From assembly GCA_900016875.1 (NCBI GenBank), contig FCNR01000032.1, forward strand, positions 1-64,000: a stretch of DNA of 64,000 nucleotides, written 5' to 3'. The position numbers and the translations under genes are program-made. The notes beneath the pieces were generated by a model that searched no databases, had not been told where the DNA came from, and saw only the letters and a list, made by a program, of their open reading frames with translations. The stretch comes from Eubacteriaceae bacterium CHKCI004. Its GTDB lineage: Bacteria > Bacillota > Clostridia > Lachnospirales > Lachnospiraceae. Shown here one piece after another: positions 2,531-13,092 of this stretch; positions within the stretch are counted from its first letter, which is position 1; the number at the start of each line of letters is the position of its first letter.

Positions 2531-3559
2531 TTATTTCCGGTTCAAAAACTCATCCACATTGTCTGCCGTCACTTTCAGATACGGCAGGTAAACGTACCGC
2601 TCATTTTCAAAAGTAATCGCATCGAGGCTCCCTCCGGTGGCAAGGGCAACCGACAGTTCTGCCATGACTGAGGCCTGTCCCTCCTTGTCATTATAGACAG
2701 TTCCGGCAAAGTCTCCGTCCTTCACTGCCTGCAGTCCCACAGAGGTTCCATCAACACCAAAAAATACAGGACGGTTATCCTCCGTATAATTCAGCTCATC
2801 ATAGGCGTCAACGGCTCCCGCCGCCATATCGTCGTTGTTGGACAATACCAGCTCCACTTCGTCATTATACTGCCGGATCATCTGCTTCATGCGGTTTTCC
2901 GCCTGGGCGCGATTCCAGTTGGCGATCTGATAACTGAGCTTTTCAAGATTAATTCCTTCTTTGTTCAGGGTATTCACCACATTTTCCGTGCGGATAATGG
3001 CGTCCTGATGATCTGCCTCTCCTTCCAGGATCACATACTGAATCTTTCCGTCACCGTTGCGGTCTACGCCTCCATTTTTGATAACTTCTGCCGCCATCTC
3101 TCCCTGCAATTCTCCGGACTGCCTGGCGATGGCTCCCACATAGTAAATCTTTTCCCACTGCATCATATCCTCTGTCACCGGCTCCCGGTTAAAGAAAATC
3201 AAAGGAATATCATGTTCTCTGGCCGTATCAATGATCTCTGACGGATCCGCCCGGTCCACCAGATTCACACACAATACATTGCATCCGGCATCAATAAGCT
3301 CCTTCACCTGTTCATTCTGTGTCTTCTCCAGCCCCGCCGCTTCCCGGACCATAGCTGTCACCTCAAGATCCTCTGTTTTATAGGTCTCCAGTTCATTTTT
3401 AAAACAGTCGATCAGTTCTCTGACAAAGGTATCTGTCTGATTATAGTAGGCGACTCCCACCTGCACCTTCTGAGAAGTATTTCCGGACACCTCTCCGCAG
3501 GAACACAGACAGAACATGCCTACTCCGCACAAAAACAAAGTCAACAGTGTTTTTTTCAT
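2531..3559 (-). CDS. Galactose/glucose-binding lipoprotein (MglB family)
   Basis: 342 residues with a lipoprotein signal ending in LCSC (Cys around 21). The normal type I periplasmic-binding order is present: VGVAYYNQTDTF (~34-45), LCVNLVD, IFFNREP, the calcium-loop-like DRNGDGKIQYV, ADHQDAIIR, LSNNDDMAAGA, FFGVDG and AGTVYND. Judged by E. coli MglB, the sugar-contacting Asp, Phe, Asn, His-x-Asp, Arg, Asn-Asp, Asp and Asn positions are all kept. It is the last gene of the operon response regulator - kinase - membrane-anchored binding protein - this protein. It is therefore more likely a sensor ligand-binder than the importer's main binding protein, though it could do both. Confidence 0.85.
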   Translation of the reverse strand: MKKTLLTLFLCGVGMFCLCSCGEVSGNTSQKVQVGVAYYNQTDTFVRELIDCFKNELETYKTEDLEVTAMVREAAGLEKTQNEQVKELIDAGCNVLCVNLVDRADPSEIIDTAREHDIPLIFFNREPVTEDMMQWEKIYYVGAIARQSGELQGEMAAEVIKNGGVDRNGDGKIQYVILEGEADHQDAIIRTENVVNTLNKEGINLEKLSYQIANWNRAQAENRMKQMIRQYNDEVELVLSNNDDMAAGAVDAYDELNYTEDNRPVFFGVDGTSVGLQAVKDGDFAGTVYNDKEGQASVMAELSVALATGGSLDAITFENERYVYLPYLKVTADNVDEFLNRK

Positions 3560-3593: not shown

Positions 3594-4568
3594 TCATTGC
3601 GTCATGGTAAAAAGAATGTTTTGATTATCTGCAGAAAACAGCGTTTCCTTTCTGACCACAGAATAAGACAAGGACCGGACGCTGACCCGGCGGAACGGAT
3701 GCTGAAGCTTTTGTATCAAGCCTCTGACACTCTCATACCCCACATTAAATTCATCCGGAACGATCAGGCATTCTACAGAGCCGTAATCCAGATAATAAAA
3801 CGCCTCCATGGAATTGCCAATTCCATATACCACTGCTCCGTACAGATTCTTATTTGCAGCGGCTTCACCCGCCTGAATCAGACATCTGTCATCTAATGCA
3901 ATGATAATATCCACCTCAGGGTAAGCCGGAAGCGCCAGTTCTTCTTCCTGTCCGGAATAGTCATTGACCGTCCAGCGGACCTCGCCTCCCGCCTGTGCAA
4001 TGCCGTCCATAAATCCTTCCTCTTTATCCTGAAATGCCGAGGTATCTTTGCTGTTTGCAACGATCCCCAAAGTTTTTCCTTCCAGACTGCCGTTAAAATC
4101 TTTCAGCAATTCGTCTGCCAGCGCAGCGCCCATTTCATAATGATCCGGTCTGGCTACCGGCAGCGCAGACGTTTCATCGTCCGTCGTCACCGCAGATTCC
4201 ACCTGCATGACCGGCACTTTCCTGCCGATTTTTTCCAGCATTTCTTCTGTGCCTTCTCCGGCAACCGGCTGCACGATAATCCCGTTGGCCCCATTATCTA
4301 TTTCTTTCTCTAGAAGTGCTTCTTCCTCTTCGACAGTCAGCGAGCCTCCCGTACTGACCACAAACAATTCTGCGTCATAATCTGCCGCTGCCATCTCAAG
4401 CCCATATTTTAGCGCGGACCACTGAGAACTATCCGAATCCTGCAAAACCACGGATATTTTCTGAATCCTGTCATCTGCTCTGTCGAACAACATAAACGCG
4501 GCGACAATAAGAAATACTACTGCGAGAATGGCTTCTATCAATATAAATACTTTTTTATCATTTTTCAT
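3594..4568 (-). CDS. Membrane-anchored sugar-binding sensor protein
   Basis: About 324 residues. An N-terminal membrane anchor (FILIEAILAVVFLIVAAFML, ~7-26) is followed by a Peripla_BP_4-like domain (ISVVLQDSDSSQWSALKYGL, NGANGIIVQPV, VDIIIALDDRC). The ATG at 4568 overlaps the kinase stop and has AGGGTG 7 bases upstream; an in-frame GTG at 4577 is less well placed. Known parallel: XylFII, a binding protein that works with a LytS/YesN pair in Clostridium xylose sensing. By that analogy, I infer that this protein presents ligand to the adjacent kinase. It keeps fewer galactose-binding residues than its neighbour, so its ligand is uncertain. Confidence 0.75.
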   Translation of the reverse strand: MKNDKKVFILIEAILAVVFLIVAAFMLFDRADDRIQKISVVLQDSDSSQWSALKYGLEMAAADYDAELFVVSTGGSLTVEEEEALLEKEIDNGANGIIVQPVAGEGTEEMLEKIGRKVPVMQVESAVTTDDETSALPVARPDHYEMGAALADELLKDFNGSLEGKTLGIVANSKDTSAFQDKEEGFMDGIAQAGGEVRWTVNDYSGQEEELALPAYPEVDIIIALDDRCLIQAGEAAANKNLYGAVVYGIGNSMEAFYYLDYGSVECLIVPDEFNVGYESVRGLIQKLQHPFRRVSVRSLSYSVVRKETLFSADNQNILFTMTQ

Positions 4569-6426
4569 GGCTGTCACCCTGCCGTTTTATTTCACCGGTA
4601 TCTTCGATGCTGAAAATATTACCTTCTTCCAGTTTTTTTCGATTTTCTTCTGTATAAGGCACCTCAGGAATACATATGGATACCCTGGTTCCCTCATCTG
4701 GCTCACTCTCCACCGTCAGTCCGTATTCTTTTCCAAAAAGAATTTTGATGCGGTTATTGACATTGACAAGACCAACGCCAGATCCTTTTTTGTGAACCCG
4801 GTTACTGTCTGTCAGTACTAAAGCCGCCTCCTCCTCGGACATGCCAAGACCATTGTCTTCCACTGCGAGAATGATATTTCCATTATCTCGTTTTCCGCTC
4901 ACAATGATTTCCCCGCAGTCGTCCATGCTGCTGACGCCGTAATTAATGGCGTTTTCCAATATCGGCTGAAGAATCAGCTTCACAGTACAGCAATCCTCAA
5001 TGGACGGATCCACCTGAAAATCCACGGAAAATGTATTTTTATAACGTATTTTCTGAATGTTCATGTAGCTTCTGGCATGCTGCAGCTCTTCTCTCACGGT
5101 GATGACTGTGCGCCCTTTGGAGAGACTGATGCGAAACAGCTTCGCCAGCTGAGATATCATGAAAGAGGCCTCGTCATTACGTTCGCCTTCGATCATCCAG
5201 ATGATAGAGTCCAGTGCATTATACAGAAAATGCGGATTAATCTGGCTCTGAAGGGCATCCAGCTCGCTTTTTCTTCTCTCATTCTGCTCAATGACAATCT
5301 CTTTCATCAGCGTATCGATCTGCTCATAAGATTTTTGAATCGAATATCCCAAATGACGGATCTCCAGCGATCCTCCTATATAAATCTCCGGTTTTTCACC
5401 CGCCTCATATTCTTTCACGGAATCATTGAGCTTCATGATTGGCCTGGAAATACGCACCGAGACAATGCGATTTACAACCACGATCATCATAAAGGTCAGC
5501 AGCATGAGGAGAACGACAAAATATTGAATATTGATCATCCCATGAGTAAACGAAGATTCATACGGAATAACTCCGATAAGCTTCCAGCCGGTATAACTGA
5601 TAGTATCCACCACCACTTTCCGGCGTCCTCCGTCAAATATCTCATCGTAGACTCCTTCTTCGTAGCCTCCATTGACAACTGCGTTCTCTTTATAAATACC
5701 TTCACTGATCTGAATCTGTCTTGGATGATAAATTATCTCCCCGCTGCTGTCACAAAGATAGTAATACTGTCCATTCTGCGAATCATTTATTTGTTTCATC
5801 ATCCATGATATACTGGAAAAATCCATATCAACCAGCAAAACACCGGTCTGCACGACTCCGCTGGTCGTAATCTCCACGGCGCGGCTCAGAGAAATCACCC
5901 AATAATAATGCTGTGTTCCATCGTCAAAAAGATTCTGTATATGAGGCGTGGAAAAGTGCATATTCTCTTTTTTATTCATCGCCTGCTCAAACCAGGACTG
6001 ACTGGTGACATCCACATTTTCTTTCTGATTCGCCACTGGTTCCGCCATCATGAGGCTTCCGTAATTATTATAAAGAGCAATGCTTCTCAATTTATCTTTA
6101 TTTGCCTCATACAACAAATTCAATTTGACCTGGATATCCGGATTCTCCCTGGAAAAATCACTTTCTTTAATGGCATTATAGTACGCCGTGTCGGAAATCT
6201 GGCGCATGCTGACCAGATAATCTTCCAGACTCTTTCCAGTCTGTTCGATGAGTTTTTGTGTATTCTGAACATTCTCTTCCCTGGTCACGAAAAGAAATTG
6301 ATTGTACATGACAAATCCCATGGCAAGCATGATAAAAATGGATATCAGGGAAAATGCCGCCATAATTGTAGACTGAATCTCCTTGGGCTTCACAAAATCC
6401 CAGAATCTGATTCTTTTACTTTTCAC
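4558..6426 (-). CDS. Sensor histidine kinase, LytS/YesM type
   Basis: 622 residues from a GTG start at 6426 that overlaps the response-regulator stop (GTGAAAAGTAA). GGAG lies 10 bases before it, and the longer frame back to 6510 runs into the regulator gene. TM1 is ~20-42, then a Cache-like extracellular sensor, TM2 ~301-320, and a HAMP-like linker. The His_kinase domain has phospho-acceptor His399 in INPHFLYN. The HATPase part shows ENAINYG, NGLGMSEEE and GSGVGLVNVNNR. Family knowledge: such kinases phosphorylate AraC-type response regulators to switch sugar transport genes. The following gene encodes a likely extracellular ligand-binding partner. Confidence 0.9.
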   Translation of the reverse strand: MKSKRIRFWDFVKPKEIQSTIMAAFSLISIFIMLAMGFVMYNQFLFVTREENVQNTQKLIEQTGKSLEDYLVSMRQISDTAYYNAIKESDFSRENPDIQVKLNLLYEANKDKLRSIALYNNYGSLMMAEPVANQKENVDVTSQSWFEQAMNKKENMHFSTPHIQNLFDDGTQHYYWVISLSRAVEITTSGVVQTGVLLVDMDFSSISWMMKQINDSQNGQYYYLCDSSGEIIYHPRQIQISEGIYKENAVVNGGYEEGVYDEIFDGGRRKVVVDTISYTGWKLIGVIPYESSFTHGMINIQYFVVLLMLLTFMMIVVVNRIVSVRISRPIMKLNDSVKEYEAGEKPEIYIGGSLEIRHLGYSIQKSYEQIDTLMKEIVIEQNERRKSELDALQSQINPHFLYNALDSIIWMIEGERNDEASFMISQLAKLFRISLSKGRTVITVREELQHARSYMNIQKIRYKNTFSVDFQVDPSIEDCCTVKLILQPILENAINYGVSSMDDCGEIIVSGKRDNGNIILAVEDNGLGMSEEEAALVLTDSNRVHKKGSGVGLVNVNNRIKILFGKEYGLTVESEPDEGTRVSICIPEVPYTEENRKKLEEGNIFSIEDTGEIKRQGDSHEK

Positions 6427-8029
6427 TTTTTGTATGCTCCATTCTGTATTTGGACGGGGACGCCCCAAACTGCCGTTTAAACACATAACTGAAATAATTC
6501 GGGTCCGCATATCCCACCTGACCGGCTATGACATAATTCTTTTCATCGGTCTCGATGAGCAATCTCGCCGCATGTTCCATACGACATTCTGTCAAAAATC
6601 CAATGAAAGAAGTTCCGGTCTCCTTCTTAAAAATACTGGAAAAATAAGAATTGGATACTCCAAGTTCCCGGCAGATCTCGTCGAGGGACAAATTTTCATC
6701 TGCATAATTGGTATAAATGTATTCTTTCGCGTCAGTGACAATGGACTGCGACGACGTACTCCTCACCTTGGCCAGTTTTTCACTGAAAGACAGGCTGGTA
6801 TCAGTCAGCCACTGTTTAAGAACATCCGGAACAAAGTCTACCAGACGGTCGCACAGCTGCTTCATATCGCCAAGCATTTCTTCCGCCGGAATATTATTAT
6901 GGGACGCAAAGCGGTACAATTCTCCGATCATTTCCATGACAGCCACATTATGCTGCTGCAAAGACTGTCCGGAGAAGGAAGGATGCTGCAGATACTTTTC
7001 CGCCGCTTCTTTGATACGATTCTCATCGCCAAGCCGGATCATCTTAAACAGCGTGGACACTTCCGAATTCTGTTCCGACGCTTCCATTTCCCTGTTCTGC
7101 GGAACAATCTCCCCGATATTAATGGCTCTGGACGCTCCGTAGATTGCCCGGTAGGATAAAGCCTCTCTGGCTCCCGCATAGGACCTCGACAGCTGCAGGA
7201 TATCAGAAACACAGGAGCCCACTCCCACCGTAACCACTGCACCGAGAATACGCTGAGCATATCGGCAGAACTTATCGCAGTCGTCCGTCAGCTCTATCAT
7301 ATCATCCTCTTTGTCAAGCTGTATGATCGCCACTCCATTCTCCAGATAAGTAAAATGACTCATTCTCCATTTGGGACTCAGACGTTCATCTACCTGCTTT
7401 TTTACCAGTGTATCAAGCAGCACCGGATTAATATTCTCCGGCACCTGGCTGGAAGATGTATGAATGACCAGGCAGCAGTAAAAAGGTCCTGTCAGAGAAA
7501 TTTGATAATTGATCAGATATTTCTCCAGATCTTCTTTTGTAATCTTTCCCTCAATGAGCGTAGAATAAAAATTTGCCTGAAGCAAAGGCAGAGATTCCAT
7601 ATAATATTGCTGCAGGGTTTCCACATTCCGTTTTTCTCTGATTTCCTGTTCCAGCTTTGCTCTGAGCTTGGTAAAGACCTCAGATAATTCCATGGAATTG
7701 ATCGGTTTTAAAATGTATTCCTCCACACCCATATGTACAGATTCCCTGGCATACTCAAACTCGTCAAATCCGGTAAATACAAGGATTTTAATCTCCGGAT
7801 ACCGCTCCTTAATCTGTCTGGTCAATTCAATGCCATCCATATATGGCATTTTAATATCTGTCATCACCACATCAGGCTGATATTCTTCCACCATCTCCAG
7901 CGCTTTTACTCCATTGCTGGCATGACCCACTACGGAAAAGCCCAATGCCTCCCAATCCATTTTTTTAATGATGATCTGGATGACCTCCTCCTCATCATCT
8001 ACCAAAAGCAAGGTATATTTATCCATCAT
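6416..8029 (-). CDS. AraC-type response regulator, YesN family
   Basis: 537 residues. The receiver domain has the acidic pair Asp11/Asp12 and the phospho-acceptor Asp58 in MTDIKMPYMDG. A long middle region follows, then a C-terminal AraC double helix-turn-helix (SLDEICRELGVSNSYFSSIFK, then AGQVGYADPNYFSYVFKRQFG). It is the first gene of the operon, with a strong promoter just upstream. The likely target is the adjacent mglBAC operon, because such regulators usually activate neighbouring sugar transporters; this is inference from position. Confidence 0.92.
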   Translation of the reverse strand: MMDKYTLLLVDDEEEVIQIIIKKMDWEALGFSVVGHASNGVKALEMVEEYQPDVVMTDIKMPYMDGIELTRQIKERYPEIKILVFTGFDEFEYARESVHMGVEEYILKPINSMELSEVFTKLRAKLEQEIREKRNVETLQQYYMESLPLLQANFYSTLIEGKITKEDLEKYLINYQISLTGPFYCCLVIHTSSSQVPENINPVLLDTLVKKQVDERLSPKWRMSHFTYLENGVAIIQLDKEDDMIELTDDCDKFCRYAQRILGAVVTVGVGSCVSDILQLSRSYAGAREALSYRAIYGASRAINIGEIVPQNREMEASEQNSEVSTLFKMIRLGDENRIKEAAEKYLQHPSFSGQSLQQHNVAVMEMIGELYRFASHNNIPAEEMLGDMKQLCDRLVDFVPDVLKQWLTDTSLSFSEKLAKVRSTSSQSIVTDAKEYIYTNYADENLSLDEICRELGVSNSYFSSIFKKETGTSFIGFLTECRMEHAARLLIETDEKNYVIAGQVGYADPNYFSYVFKRQFGASPSKYRMEHTKSEK

Positions 8030-8190: not shown

Positions 8191-9846
8191 TTATTTTTTC
8201 TGAACGTATTTCAGACAGTCCAGAGTAACTGCTACAAGGATGATGATACCGGAGAATACGAACTGTAAGTTCGTGTCGATACCGAGGATAGTCAGGGAGT
8301 ATGTTAATGCTGTGAAGATACATACACCAACAACTACGCCTGAGATTTTACCGATACCACCAGTAAAGGATACGCCGCCGACTACGCAGGCTGCGATGGC
8401 GTCCATCTCCCAGCCCTGTCCATAAGCTGCGGAACCGGAACCGACCATTCGGATACATTCCAGCCAGGAACCGAAACCGTAAAGGATACCGGCCATAACG
8501 AAAGCTCCTACTGTAACTGCGAATACGGAGATACCGGATACGGCTGCTGCCTCCGGGTTACCGCCTACCGCGTACAGGTTTTTACCAAATGTTGTTTTAT
8601 TCCAGATGAACCATACAATCACAATGGCTGCGACTGCCCATAAAATAATGGTAGGGAATCCGTTGAGCTTCGGAATGATCATGTTCGGGATCACCGGCTC
8701 GATGGCTCCAAAGGACACACCCTTTGTCGCATAAGTAACAAGACCGAAAATTACAAGCATGTTTGACATCGTTGAAATGAACGGATGCATTTTAAACTTC
8801 GCCGTAAAGAAACCGGCAATTGTCGTAAAGAATGTACACAGAACCACACAGGCTACCAGTGCAAGAACAATACGTCCTACCAGTGGCATTCCGGTAAAAT
8901 CAAAGATATGTCCGAAAACGCCGCCGGTGTTGACTCCCTGATGCATGATAATGGTTGCCGCCGTCATACCCATACCGACCATACGTCCGATGGAAAGGTC
9001 AGTACCTGCCAGAAGGATCAGAGCCGCAACGCCCAGTGCAAGGAACATTCTAGGCGATGCCTGCTGCAGGATATTCAGCACGTTGTTGTAAGTCAGTAAC
9101 GGCGCACCCTTCACGATCGGTGTGATAATACACAATGCGATGAAAATAAGGATGATTGCAATATAAAGACCATTCTGTAATAAGAAGGATCTCTTATTGA
9201 ATGTGTACTTATAATTCTCCCACTTCTGCGCCCTGGATTCCATAAATGTAAACTTGGACATGCGGAGCAGGTCGATCAGATGATATTTATGAGAAAATGC
9301 CTCATGTCTTCTGTCCTTAACTGCCTGCAGATCATTCTGCAGCTGCAGCTTCGCATCAAAAAGACGATTCTTATAAACATAATTCTCATCTTTGATTTCC
9401 TGACTGTCAGACAGTTTTTTCAGATTTTCCTCATGCTCTTTTTTCAGCTCCACGAGTTTCTGATTATACTTTTCTTTTGCCAGTACTTTTTCCTGGTCAC
9501 AGCTTTCTTTAACCGGTTTATAGTACTCTTCATCGAAATGTTCTTTCAGATATGCTTCAGCTTCCGCGATCAATTTGGATATTTCATCCTTATTTTTCGC
9601 GTCGACTCCTTTTGCCATCTCGATTTCCGTGCGAAGAGTCGCGATTCTGTTTTCTTTCTCTCCCTGAGTTAAAGAACGGTCTCTCTTTACTCCGTCCAGT
9701 GTATTCTGAAGAGAAATCACTTTATCTATTCCGTCTACCCTTAATGCGTCAATTTTTTTCTGGATATTTCCTACAAATTCATCAATGGGTTGACGCAGTT
9801 TCTTTTCTTCTTCAACCGTAAGAATCTTAGTATTTCCTTTCTCCAT
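8191..9846 (-). CDS. mglC: Galactose ABC permease with coiled-coil extension
   Basis: 551 residues, against about 336 in E. coli MglC. Residues ~1-215 are hydrophilic, charged and heptad-like (KKEHEENLKKLSDSQE and similar), predicted coiled coil. The first membrane helix starts near 222. The remaining ~330 residues are a typical BPD_transp_2 permease (GTDLSIGRMVGMGMTAATII, YAVGGNPEAAAVSGI, GGVSFTGGIGKISGV). It forms the membrane channel of the galactose/methyl-galactoside importer with MglA and MglB. The extension should face the cytoplasm; its role is unknown. The frame is open with no internal stop, and no separate start codon context near residue 215 was judged better. Confidence 0.88.
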   Translation of the reverse strand: MEKGNTKILTVEEEKKLRQPIDEFVGNIQKKIDALRVDGIDKVISLQNTLDGVKRDRSLTQGEKENRIATLRTEIEMAKGVDAKNKDEISKLIAEAEAYLKEHFDEEYYKPVKESCDQEKVLAKEKYNQKLVELKKEHEENLKKLSDSQEIKDENYVYKNRLFDAKLQLQNDLQAVKDRRHEAFSHKYHLIDLLRMSKFTFMESRAQKWENYKYTFNKRSFLLQNGLYIAIILIFIALCIITPIVKGAPLLTYNNVLNILQQASPRMFLALGVAALILLAGTDLSIGRMVGMGMTAATIIMHQGVNTGGVFGHIFDFTGMPLVGRIVLALVACVVLCTFFTTIAGFFTAKFKMHPFISTMSNMLVIFGLVTYATKGVSFGAIEPVIPNMIIPKLNGFPTIILWAVAAIVIVWFIWNKTTFGKNLYAVGGNPEAAAVSGISVFAVTVGAFVMAGILYGFGSWLECIRMVGSGSAAYGQGWEMDAIAACVVGGVSFTGGIGKISGVVVGVCIFTALTYSLTILGIDTNLQFVFSGIIILVAVTLDCLKYVQKK

Positions 9847-9894
9847 ATCTTCTTCTCCCTTATGATAGGTATAGTCTACAGGTTGCAGGTTGCA

Positions 9895-11403
9895 TTACAG
9901 ATATTTTGCACTGAGCCGAAGGAGTTCTTCCTGATTCGTCTCTTTAGTGTTGACGATTCCAGAAAGATGTCCGTTTGACATAACGCCGATACGATTGGTG
10001 ATACCCAGAATCTCCGGCATCTCAGAGGAAACAACAATGATGGTTTTTCCCTGTTTCGCCATTTTGATGATCAGCTCGTAAATCTCGTATTTTGCTCCGA
10101 CATCGATACCACGAGTCGGTTCATCCATCATAAATACTTTCGGATCACGCTCCAGCCATTTACCAAAGATAACCTTCTGCTGATTTCCACCGGAAAGGCT
10201 GGTGATCATATCTTCCGGTCCCATACATTTTGTATTCATGGTTTTGATCTCATCTGCCGTCGCCTTCACCATTTTGGAATCGGATAACGCAAGACCGGAT
10301 TTATAGTGATTTAAGTTGGCAATGGTCGTATTGAATGTCAGATCCGTCTTCAGGAATAATCCATTGGCCTTCCGTTCCTCGGTAATCATGGCAAATCCAT
10401 GATCCATAGCTTCTTTGGCACTGTTAAAGTTCATCAGTTTACCGTTATAATACATACGGCCCGCCGCTCTTGTCCTGACGCCGAACATTGTTTCAAGAAG
10501 CTCTGTACGTCCCGCTCCTACCAGTCCATAAAGACCAAAAATCTCTCCTTCTCTGACATCAAAAGAAATATCCTTCAAATGCGGTTCAAACTTTGTTGAT
10601 AAGTGCTGAATGGATAAAATAACATCTTTTGGCGTATTATCCACCGGAGGGAATCTGTTTTCAAGAGAACGGCCAACCATCGCTGCGATCAGCTCATTCA
10701 TATTTGTATCCTCGGAACGTTTCGTCATAACAAGATTACCATCCCGAAGTACGGATACCTCGTCACAGATTGTAAATATTTCATCCATTTTGTGAGAAAT
10801 GTAAATCAATGAAATGCCCTGATCTCTCAGCATACGCATCATCTCGAAGAGTTTGTCTACTTCCTGTACTGTCAGGGAGGAAGTCGGCTCGTCAAGAACG
10901 ATTACTTTGGCATTGTAGGAAATCGCCTTGGCGATCTCGCACATCTGTCTCTGGGATACGGACATGTTCCGCATCGGCTGTGTCAGGTTTACAGTCATTC
11001 CCAGCTTTCTGAACAACTCAGAAGCTTCTTTTTTCATTCTTCCTTCATCCACAACGCCCATGGAATTAACCGGATAACGTCCCAGAAACAGATTATCAAC
11101 CACATTTCTTTCCAGACATTGGTTCAGTTCCTGATGAACCATGGCAATTCCATTCTCCAGCGCATCCTTCGGACCCGAGAAGCTCACTTCACTGCCGTCA
11201 AGGAAAATACTTCCTTCATCTTTCTGGTATGTACCGAAAAGACATTTCATCATGGTGGACTTACCGGCTCCGTTCTCACCCATCAGTCCCATGACCGTAC
11301 CTCTCCTCAAATCCAGATTGATGTGGTCAAGTACTCTGTTCCGGCCGAAAGATTTGCTCATATTGCGTATGGATAAGACAATATCTTCTCTCTTTTCTGC
11401 CAT
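9895..11403 (-). CDS. mglA: Galactose ABC transporter ATPase MglA
   Basis: 502 residues with two ABC domains in one chain, typical of monosaccharide importers. First domain: Walker A GENGAGKST, Walker B VIVLDEPTSSL, and the degenerate signature MSVSQRQ usual in this family. Second domain: a degenerate GLVGAGRTE loop, signature LSGGNQQK, and MMDEPTRGIDVG. It energises sugar import through MglC. A 48-base gap leads to mglC. A 255-base gap with two hairpins separates it from mglB, a common way of making more binding protein than ATPase. Confidence 0.93.
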   Translation of the reverse strand: MAEKREDIVLSIRNMSKSFGRNRVLDHINLDLRRGTVMGLMGENGAGKSTMMKCLFGTYQKDEGSIFLDGSEVSFSGPKDALENGIAMVHQELNQCLERNVVDNLFLGRYPVNSMGVVDEGRMKKEASELFRKLGMTVNLTQPMRNMSVSQRQMCEIAKAISYNAKVIVLDEPTSSLTVQEVDKLFEMMRMLRDQGISLIYISHKMDEIFTICDEVSVLRDGNLVMTKRSEDTNMNELIAAMVGRSLENRFPPVDNTPKDVILSIQHLSTKFEPHLKDISFDVREGEIFGLYGLVGAGRTELLETMFGVRTRAAGRMYYNGKLMNFNSAKEAMDHGFAMITEERKANGLFLKTDLTFNTTIANLNHYKSGLALSDSKMVKATADEIKTMNTKCMGPEDMITSLSGGNQQKVIFGKWLERDPKVFMMDEPTRGIDVGAKYEIYELIIKMAKQGKTIIVVSSEMPEILGITNRIGVMSNGHLSGIVNTKETNQEELLRLSAKYL

Positions 11404-11501
11404 ATCGTTTTACTCCTGTTTTCTTCTCCTGGATACTTTACACAAGTTCCGATTCCTTCGTCCTCGCATTTCTGTAAAATATCCAGGTCTGCATGGATGA
11501 T

Positions 11502-11565
11502 GGGGAGAATGTCTCTCCCCAATCATCTGGTTTCACGGCGGTGCCGGATTCATCCGGCGCGCCGC
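11502..11565 (-). promoter_or_regulatory. Two mRNA hairpins between mglB and mglA
   Basis: GGGGAGA/TCTCCCC forms one stem (11502-11520). CGGCGGTGCCGGAT with ATCCGGCGCGCCG forms a second (11536-11564). Neither is followed by a U tract on the leftward strand. They therefore look like processing or 3'-end stabilising structures for the mglB message rather than full terminators. The rest of the 255-base gap shows nothing else. Confidence 0.5.
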
Positions 11566-11658
11566 CTTTATGCTTACAATTTTACGCCTGCACTGATGAC
11601 CGGCGATCTATTCCCGTCTTCCAGTGCCCCGGCTGCTGCTCTCATCAGTCCGCAGTTC

Positions 11659-12966
11659 TTACTGGCTGAGGATGGATGTATAAGAAGCAGCGTTATCTGT
11701 CTTAACCATGTTGATTGCGAATGCATCGTATGCGCCCGGATTTCCAAGACGGTTTGTGATGTTGGACTCTGTCTGGCCGTCGCCACCGATGTACTCAACA
11801 TTCAGGTTCAGAAGATCATCGTACTGTTCCAGTAATGGCTGATATGTGGAGCTTAAGAAGTTATCAGCTGCATTGTAGATGTTCAGCCATACGTTCTTTG
11901 TTGCATGTGTGCTCTCATCAAGCTGTGCAGATACAGGCTCGTAGATCTTTGTGGAGTCTGTGAATTCCTGATAGTTGTCAGCTGTAACTGCCAGATTCAA
12001 TGCGTAGTAGGAACGCTCGTCTGCATTGTATTCGTAGTCAACGCCTTCCTGCAGTACGTTTCCAGCCTCATCAGCTGTACCAATACCAGTATCAATGTCT
12101 ACGCCGTCAAGAGCGTTACGAAGTACACGAAGTGTTAAGTAAGCCTGCACGTCTGCATGCTGGCTGATTGTTCCGCCGTAGCCTTCTGCGATAGCTGCTA
12201 CAGCGTCGCTGTTTGCATCGTAACCGAAGGTAGGAACCTGGTTATCTTTGGACCATGCGTTGAACATGGACATTCCCATACCGTCGTTGTTGGAAGCAAT
12301 AACATCGATCTGATCTCCGAAGGAAGAAGCCCATGTTCCGATAGCGTTACCTGCTGTCGCTGCATCCCATGTAGCACCTGCGGAGTTCTTCATTTCCTGA
12401 GAAGCAAGCTCACGAACAATGTATGTCTGTCCGTTTACTTCAATCTGGCCATCCTTAACGATCGTTGCGGAACCATCTGTGTTAGTACCGATCGGTTCGC
12501 TGTTTACAGCGCCGTCTGTCTCAACAGCTGTTCCAAGAGCGTTACGAACACCTCTTGTACGGGCGATGGAATCGTTGTGTCCAATATCACCGATAGCAAG
12601 AACATATCCGATAACACCGTCGCCGTTACGGTCGATAGTATCAATATTCTTCTCGATGTACTCTTTGATCATTGTTCCCTGGAGCTCTGCACCCTGATTT
12701 GCATCAAAACCTACATAATAGGTATCATCGTTGAAATTAAGGGCTGTCATATCAAGCTCGCCTGTGGAACTGTTGGAAGGCTGACGATTGTACCATACAA
12801 GCGGTTTGTCTTTGTTAGCCACGCTGCTTCCGGAAGCCTCCTGCTGTGCTGCGCCGGTATTCGCTTCGCTGCCACCGTTACCTGAATCTCCGGTGCTGGA
12901 ACCGCATGCTACCATGGACAATGCCAGAGCTGCTGCCATCACTGTCGTAAACAATTTTTTCCTCAT
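11659..12966 (-). CDS. mglB: Galactose-binding lipoprotein, circularly permuted MglB
   Basis: 435 residues. A lipoprotein signal (LALSMVACGSS, Cys21) and a Ser/Gly-rich linker come first. The mature fold starts at PLVWYNRQPS (~55-64), which in ordinary MglB is the fourth strand. It continues through DRNGDGVIGYV, GHNDSIARTR, ATWDAA, IASNNDGMGMS, TFGYDAN and VTADNYQEF. After a linker (~341-356) it ends with NVWLNIYNAADNF...DAFAINMVKTDNAASYTSIL (358-435), which matches the N-terminal part of ordinary MglB. By E. coli numbering the sugar contacts map to Asp368, Phe370, Asn60, His130, Asp132, Arg136, Trp200, Asn227 and Asp250, with Asn256 replaced by Gln. The start is supported by AGAAAGGAG upstream. 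It is first in the mglBAC order. Confidence 0.85.
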   Translation of the reverse strand: MRKKLFTTVMAAALALSMVACGSSTGDSGNGGSEANTGAAQQEASGSSVANKDKPLVWYNRQPSNSSTGELDMTALNFNDDTYYVGFDANQGAELQGTMIKEYIEKNIDTIDRNGDGVIGYVLAIGDIGHNDSIARTRGVRNALGTAVETDGAVNSEPIGTNTDGSATIVKDGQIEVNGQTYIVRELASQEMKNSAGATWDAATAGNAIGTWASSFGDQIDVIASNNDGMGMSMFNAWSKDNQVPTFGYDANSDAVAAIAEGYGGTISQHADVQAYLTLRVLRNALDGVDIDTGIGTADEAGNVLQEGVDYEYNADERSYYALNLAVTADNYQEFTDSTKIYEPVSAQLDESTHATKNVWLNIYNAADNFLSSTYQPLLEQYDDLLNLNVEYIGGDGQTESNITNRLGNPGAYDAFAINMVKTDNAASYTSILSQ

Positions 12967-12986
12967 TACATTTTTCTCCTTTCTCC

Positions 12987-13092
12987 AAAACGTTTTTCAC
13001 ACGTTTTTGTTTACAATGACAGTTTAACCGAAATCCCGTTCTGTTTATATAGAATATTTTACTATCCATCTTGAAATTCTTTAGATTTTACT
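12987..13092 (-). promoter_or_regulatory. mglB upstream control region
   Basis: Two direct copies of AGTAAAAT (leftward strand, 13092-13085 and 13063-13056) are spaced 29 bp, followed by a TATATA -10-like box (~13052-13047) without a good -35. This is the layout expected of a promoter activated by an AraC-type regulator. An AAAACGTTTT palindrome lies at 12987-12996 in the leader. Assignment to the nearby response regulator is inference. Confidence 0.4.

Follow-up and report, generated by a model that had tools for sequence, protein, structure and literature searches.

Can the binding protein of a sugar importer carry the segments of its fold in an altered order, and, if so, is this an oddity of a single genome? 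The question is raised by the gene at 11659..12966 in the window, i.e., the whole stretch of 64,000 nucleotides analyzed. An earlier note had proposed that its product, referred to here as P0001, begins at the strand that is the fourth in canonical MglB, the segment that is usually the first being placed at its end.

Segment Order in the mglB Product

The gene and the parts of its product are as follows.

11659..12966, minus strand: mglB, circularly permuted galactose/glucose-binding lipoprotein of 435 aa, P0001 (ORF, Pfam, PDB match)
12904..12966, minus strand: lipoprotein signal, aa 1-21, followed by a low-complexity linker to approximately aa 53 (sequence)
11935..12807, minus strand: body, aa 54-344, homologous to canonical MglB from strand 4 onward and starting with KPLVWYNRQPS (Pfam, alignment, hhalign)
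11899..11958, minus strand: linker, aa 337-356, between the former C- and N-termini, matching the fourth hinge/connection of Tp0684 (rotated alignment; PMC4990184)
11662..11901, minus strand: permuted segment, aa 356-435 (Peripla_BP_7), homologous to the N-terminus of canonical MglB (Pfam, profiles, alignment)

The Pfam search placed Peripla_BP_4 on aa 79-288 of P0001, with a match to profile positions 93-256 of 258 only, and Peripla_BP_7 on aa 356-426, where the whole profile (1-71) was covered (E 2e-41). The unpermuted lipoprotein P0002, which is encoded at 2531-3559 on the minus strand of the window and had been suggested as an internal comparison, served this purpose well, as Peripla_BP_4 extended over positions 1-256 in the normal order. 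Since the Pfam order differs between the two proteins, the order of segments in P0001 is truly changed. When aa 345-435 of P0001 were put first, the protein aligned with canonical MglB from end to end, with NVWLNIYNAADNF on RIGVTIYKYDDNF and DAFAINMVKTD on KALAINLVDPA; the Pfam order and this rotated alignment bear out the arrangement proposed in the earlier note. In the body, hhalign placed canonical MglB 106-331 on aa 52-337 (E 1.4e-29). P0001 matched NF011924, the NCBIfam model of canonical MglB, in two stretches with 88.6 bits, far under the cut-off of 420, as expected of a permuted chain. The signal ends at C21 in a motif that we take to be lipobox-like, and this cysteine was conserved in at least 90% of the rows in a 28-row alignment. 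The quality of an AlphaFold model of P0001, generated with 25 aligned sequences, was low, with a mean pLDDT of 47; the order of strands and helices that it shows at aa 357-433 was compatible with the permutation and was not counted as evidence. Structural proof therefore depends on the homology to the crystal structure 5JX2.

Relationship to the Tp0684/MglB-2 Family

The best solved relatives of P0001 were the T. pallidum Tp0684/MglB-2 entries 5JX2, 6BGD, and 6BGC (E 3.8e-89 to 3.5e-87). P0001 was colinear with these chains in one stretch, namely, over aa 51-433 for 5JX2 and 6BGC and over aa 46-433 for 6BGD; in the match to 5JX2 (E 3.8e-89), aa 51-433 fell on chain residues 19-385 of 387. Canonical galactose-binding chains found in the same PDB search matched in two stretches each, with E 6e-19 and weaker. 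By homology, P0001 thus has the order that characterizes MglB-2, with strand 4 first and strands 1-3 of the N-lobe at the C-terminus. The search described in PMC4990184 asked for more than 90% coverage and a well-matched N-terminus against Tp0684, and the alignment covered approximately 95% of the Tp0684 chain and 88% of the query, the residues of P0001 without a match being the first 50 aa, i.e., signal and linker.

PMC4990184 (2016) reports the crystal structure of Tp0684 and names the circular permutation as such. According to this source, the strand order in the N-lobe of Tp0684 is 5-4-6-1-2-3 as compared to 2-1-3-4-5-6, and the chain has a fourth hinge crossover, as opposed to three in canonical MglB. 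Tp0684 bound glucose in vitro with a conformational change, and the same sugar ligands were mapped in it and are conserved. The permuted topology, for which the names Type Ic and Cluster Bc were proposed, was noted in treponemes as well as in a large number of gram-positive bacteria, gut commensals being frequent among the latter. The earlier note had suggested that a permutation could change domain motion or docking; as for motion, the treponemal protein retains a conformational change upon binding glucose. The earlier note knew of no description of a permuted MglB, a view that has to be abandoned: because the structure and the permutation of a homologue had already been described, the permutation in P0001 is the rediscovery of a known kind. 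Sequence comparison argues strongly that P0001 is a member of MglB-2 (Type Ic/Cluster Bc), and it is very probably the glucose/galactose receptor of an MglBAC importer.

The sugar site was compared using the list of E. coli MglB contacts in Table 2 of PMC4990184, with residues compared on a Klebsiella-type MglB. Nine of the 10 ligand positions are identical in P0001 (D368, F370, N60, H130, D132, R136, W200, N226 or N227, and D250), and at the tenth Q269 replaces Asn, which is the same change as in Tp0684. D368 and F370 lie within the new C-terminal segment, and the seven other identical contacts along with Q269 are in the body, so that the initial proposal that all but one of the contacts can be mapped, two of them to the new C-terminus, was correct. 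The body also contains a calcium-type, EF-loop-like loop (D112, N114, D116, G120, and D221) that is kept in the style of Tp0684. Both the glucose-binding residues and the calcium site expected of MglB-2 are thus retained. In P0002, all 10 ligand positions are as in canonical MglB.

Origin of the C-Terminal Segment

PMC4990184 left open the idea that the segment of Tp0684 comes from a different gene, because it shares only 13% identity with E. coli MglB. Applied to P0001, this would mean that the C-terminal segment was acquired from a different gene and came to play the same role by convergence, and that it is not the N-terminus of MglB itself. In line with this, the mean identity to canonical MglB was lower for the segment (18.6%) than for the body (31.1%). 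However, the identity of the segment to outgroup proteins averaged only 10.6%, and the permuted segment and canonical MglB have a D-N-F ligand stretch in common.

We compared a profile of the permuted segment (85 sequences) with a profile of canonical MglB (25 sequences). The latter was built without P0002 (L184) and without six weaker hits of the MglB model (L183, L185, L186, L190, L191, and L192), which were used as separate templates. The segment profile matched canonical MglB with E 3.5e-5 and a score of 35.5, the match falling on residues 27-91 of Klebsiella-type MglB. It matched the family of sensor-side MglBs with E 3.3e-4, and both matches were colinear over 63-64 columns. The scores of 60 column-shuffled templates had a mean of 13.8, a standard deviation of 3.0, and a maximum of 24.8, and the reversed template scored 13.7 (E 0.23). 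Four other binding-protein profiles gave E values of at least 0.15 and scores of at most 14.7 over 9-25 columns, namely, the P0003 family (E 0.15 or worse) and matched Peripla_BP_4 clusters of 9, 5, and 5 proteins from relatives (E 0.30 or worse, score of at most 13.1). The Neff of these cluster templates was 1.7-2.6, as compared to 2.6 for the MglB template.

The separation was incomplete with single-sequence templates, whose scores overlapped, with a median of 17.8 for 33 MglB-like proteins and of 11.1 for 29 others. Eleven single-protein templates gave E 0.0086 or worse, and L192 (E 0.0086) and L229 (E 0.013) outscored the Klebsiella-type MglB alone (E 0.022). Single-sequence controls are an unequal test against an MglB profile, and the matched profiles were therefore added. 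The longest ORF over the middle of the match was used for the matched controls; 4 of the 30 (L221, L226, L228, and L229) are possibly wrong ORFs, and these had no clear similarity to MglB (E of at least 1). The reverse comparisons gave a weaker signal: the N-terminal segment of canonical MglB found the right place in the whole permuted protein with E 0.0018 on nine columns, and in the comparison of whole with whole the segment match was the third alternative (E 0.021), again in the right place. Given the profile-level match to the MglB N-terminus and the shared D-N-F stretch, the sequences favor a true permutation of MglB as the better reading, and an origin from a different gene appears unlikely.

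A duplication intermediate, i.e., a longer protein with both copies of the segment, was not seen. Peripla_BP_7 was present in 32 genomes of the family set of 299 and in 4 of the class set of 391 (G000 belongs to both sets), and the open frames in these genomes had 418-511 aa. A contig scan confirmed 370 relatives of P0001, of which the best 80 were kept. At 15 of these best 80 of 370 loci, the mechanical ORF had at least 30 extra residues in front, 125 at most (L034); with an E threshold of 0.01, these stretches matched neither form of the segment.

In a maximum-likelihood tree of the bodies of 57 proteins, the 12 permuted proteins, from Bacillota and the treponeme, formed one clade (100/99), and the support for the place of this clade beside the canonical and sensor MglBs was weak (84/42). 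Considering this weak placement, the arbitrary root, which was set for drawing only, and the long branches present, we claim only the single grouping of the permuted proteins. The treponemal side of the tree and of the operon analysis consisted of one locus (L116, T. saccharophilum), and T. pallidum was represented by the PDB alignment and PMC4990184.

Importer Operon and Sensor Cluster

Downstream of mglB, the window contains the following genes.

9895..11403, minus strand: mglA, ABC ATPase of the importer, 502 aa (best model NF008215 MglA, 668 bits, cut-off 828)
8191..9846, minus strand: mglC, permease, 551 aa (best NCBIfam model MglC, 261 bits, cut-off 386)
6416..8029, minus strand: response regulator with AraC-type DNA-binding domain (domain search)
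4558..6510, minus strand: sensor kinase with dCache, His_kinase (PF06580), and HATPase (domain search)
3594..4577, minus strand: second substrate-binding protein, Peripla_BP_4, P0003 (Pfam; neighborhood)
2531..3559, minus strand: unpermuted MglB-like lipoprotein, P0002 (Pfam, NCBIfam, ligand residues)

The order on the minus strand is thus mglB-mglA-mglC, followed by the regulator, the kinase, P0003, and P0002. The adjacent mglA and mglC of an MglBAC system are present, and the MglA and MglC models were the best for their products, but under the equivalog cut-offs. We take the His_kinase domain (PF06580) of the sensor kinase to be of the LytS/YesM type. The substrate-binding protein at 3594..4577 is probably the partner of the sensor, and P0002 is a probable sensor-side receptor. 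We infer that a sensor controls the expression of the importer and that it recognizes the same sugars by means of an ordinary MglB. An aldose 1-epimerase ORF is located at 962-2383 on the plus strand; within the mechanical ORF, the domain does not begin before residue 147, and the true start is probably further in.

Next to mglB and on the same strand, mglA was observed in 77 of the best 80 of 370 loci, the other 3 having no mglA in the stretch seen. Counted with ORFs of at least 200 aa and E 1e-10, the full sensor set was present downstream in 47 of these 80 loci, whereas in 11 the kinase and binding protein(s) lay only upstream, in a more distant form (20-44% identity). The set was partial in 5 loci, and none was present in the stretch seen in 17, some of which are cut by contig ends.

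The sensor genes in the window could also suggest that the permuted protein is mainly a signaling receptor and that the sugar is imported via another binding protein, and a diverged permuted member in genome G789 (L153), which has no mglAC in view and lies beside genes with GGDEF and HD domains, points in the same direction. This is very unlikely for P0001, because mglA is next on the same strand in the window as in 77 of the best 80 of 370 loci, it is the unpermuted and not the permuted protein that sits with the kinase genes, and a search of genome G000 yielded one permuted copy. A role of P0001 in the importer remains the preferred reading. As L153 has no importer genes in view, permuted members can leave the importer. 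At this locus (9638-13026, minus strand), the permuted protein (56-58% identity) is part of a same-strand run with HD_5 and GGDEF genes, the equivalent of the sugar contact D132 is Ile, and the receptor has possibly moved to cyclic-di-GMP signaling.

Distribution of the Permuted Receptor

The search for the same order in other Lachnospiraceae that the earlier note had suggested was successful. All of the best 80 of 370 relatives had this order, with a single BLASTP alignment that started at query residue 50 or before and ended at residue 433 or beyond. These best 80 of 370 were mostly from Lachnospiraceae and other Clostridia, with one from Bacteroidales (L039), and the nearest included Eubacterium sp. 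An11 (93%), Ca. Anaerobutyricum avicola (91%), and Anaerobutyricum hallii (81%). With the genome of the window included each time, Peripla_BP_7 was detected in 32 of 299 genomes at the family level (one per genus), in 4 of 391 at the class level, and in 2 of 398 at the phylum level. The full permuted protein was present in 8 of 61 relatives, including that of the window, with 79-100% identity, and T. saccharophilum carries a permuted protein on a plasmid (45% identity). The permutation is a feature of an established receptor family in many gut bacteria and no oddity of one genome. An assembly or annotation artifact that joined unrelated pieces, including the assembly error that had been named as a possible refutation, can practically be dismissed, as the same order occurs in the best 80 of 370 loci from many assemblies as well as on the T. 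saccharophilum plasmid, and Peripla_BP_7 in 32 of 299 family genomes.

An N-Terminal Extension of MglC

The permease of the window has an additional feature.

9202-9846, minus strand: charged helical extension, MglC aa 1-215 (absent from canonical MglC; predicted helical hairpins)

With 551 aa, MglC is approximately 215 residues longer at the N-terminus than ordinary MglC. The mglC gene was in view in 75 of the best 80 of 370 loci, and the extension was present in all 75, of which 72 were complete (508-551 aa), 2 were cut by a contig end (L076 and L113), and 1 was in two frames (L102). The MglC proteins of L154 (G686), L155 (G129), and T. saccharophilum L116 were extended too (562, 553, and 564 aa, respectively), the extension in L116 sharing only 25% identity (E 5e-6). 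Not counting the window, all 78 operons that combine a permuted mglB with a visible mglC thus carry the extension, as compared to 0 of 12 canonical operons. The latter 12, with MglC proteins of 333-376 aa that gave no match, comprise 10 from the phylum of the window and 2 from Fusobacteriota; L201 (no MglC in its 3 kb) and L118 (broken MglC) were not counted. Among the 391 class genomes, the extension was detected in 3 genomes that also have Peripla_BP_7, with one weak match (E 8e-4) in another genome. In the fourth class genome with Peripla_BP_7, G789, no extension was found among the best candidates scored (up to seven per genome).

In the AlphaFold model of MglC, blocks within aa 11-190 had pLDDT values of 81-93 and formed extended helices that turn near 56-60 and 145-147; we read these as two predicted helical hairpins. 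L062 and L044 have natural deletions that keep the reading frame (aa 39-81 and aa 135-169, respectively), and these are located roughly around the predicted turns. A Foldseek search of the PDB with the MglC model, which is confident only at aa 11 to approximately 190, yielded no match with E of 0.001 or below and 177 with E of 10 or below. By sequence, the PDB gave no match to the extension up to E 0.1, and Pfam gave none up to E 1. In the literature searched, which covered few subscription journals, we found no description of the extension.

The permuted receptor and the coiled-coil-extended MglC might form one matched design in Bacillota and the treponeme, in which extension and permutation depend on each other. 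Docking, tethering, or keeping the importer receptor from cross-talk with the unpermuted sensor receptor are candidates for such an interdependence. We consider this idea tentative and rather doubtful; common descent of one operon would equally give the correlation between extension and permutation.

Proposed Mechanism and Significance

According to the mechanism proposed, lipidation of P0001 at C21 would be followed by folding into the usual sugar trap of two lobes, the C-terminus of the chain providing strands 1-3 of the N-lobe. P0001 would bind glucose or galactose, close, and pass the sugar to MglAC. The downstream regulator, kinase, and two substrate-binding proteins, among them the unpermuted P0002, would detect the sugar and control the operon. 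A single origin of the permutation is probable, in which mglB was duplicated or fused and the outer parts were lost; the permutation would add a fourth hinge crossover to the chain. Candidate reasons for keeping it are tethering and an altered fit to the extended MglC.

The locus is a good test bed, with a permuted MglB beside the importer and an unpermuted one beside the sensor kinase, presumably for the same sugars, and the MglC extension found along with the permuted receptor provides a concrete hypothesis. What is added to the known family is modest: the profile homology of the segment, the single clade that includes the treponeme, and the pairing with the MglC extension.

Comparison with Known Systems

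Canonical MglB proteins (E. coli/Klebsiella, Fusobacterium, and Cetobacterium) have a body, a sugar site, and a calcium loop homologous to those of P0001, and their N-terminal segment is homologous to the permuted segment by profile. They differ in the order of segments and in having three instead of four hinge crossings, the latter according to PMC4990184. The MglC of canonical mgl systems is devoid of the 215-aa extension, unlike that of the window.

Tp0684 and P0001 have in common the segment order, the termini, the linker site, the lipoprotein nature, and the sugar contacts, including Gln for Asn. As stated in PMC4990184, the Tp0684 gene, like that of P0001, has an operon-like context that includes a gene for an ABC permease (tp0686). 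The position of E. coli D14 is Asp (D368) in P0001 and Asn in Tp0684, and P0001 has a longer insert around aa 148-167. Unlike for Tp0684, a two-component sensor is linked to the permuted mglB in many of the loci examined.

In systems that combine a sugar-binding protein with a sensor kinase, such as XylFII-LytS and CuaD, genes for substrate-binding proteins lie beside kinase and regulator genes, as in the P0002/P0003 cluster. The window differs from these systems in that its sensor cluster has two binding proteins and its importer uses a permuted paralogue.
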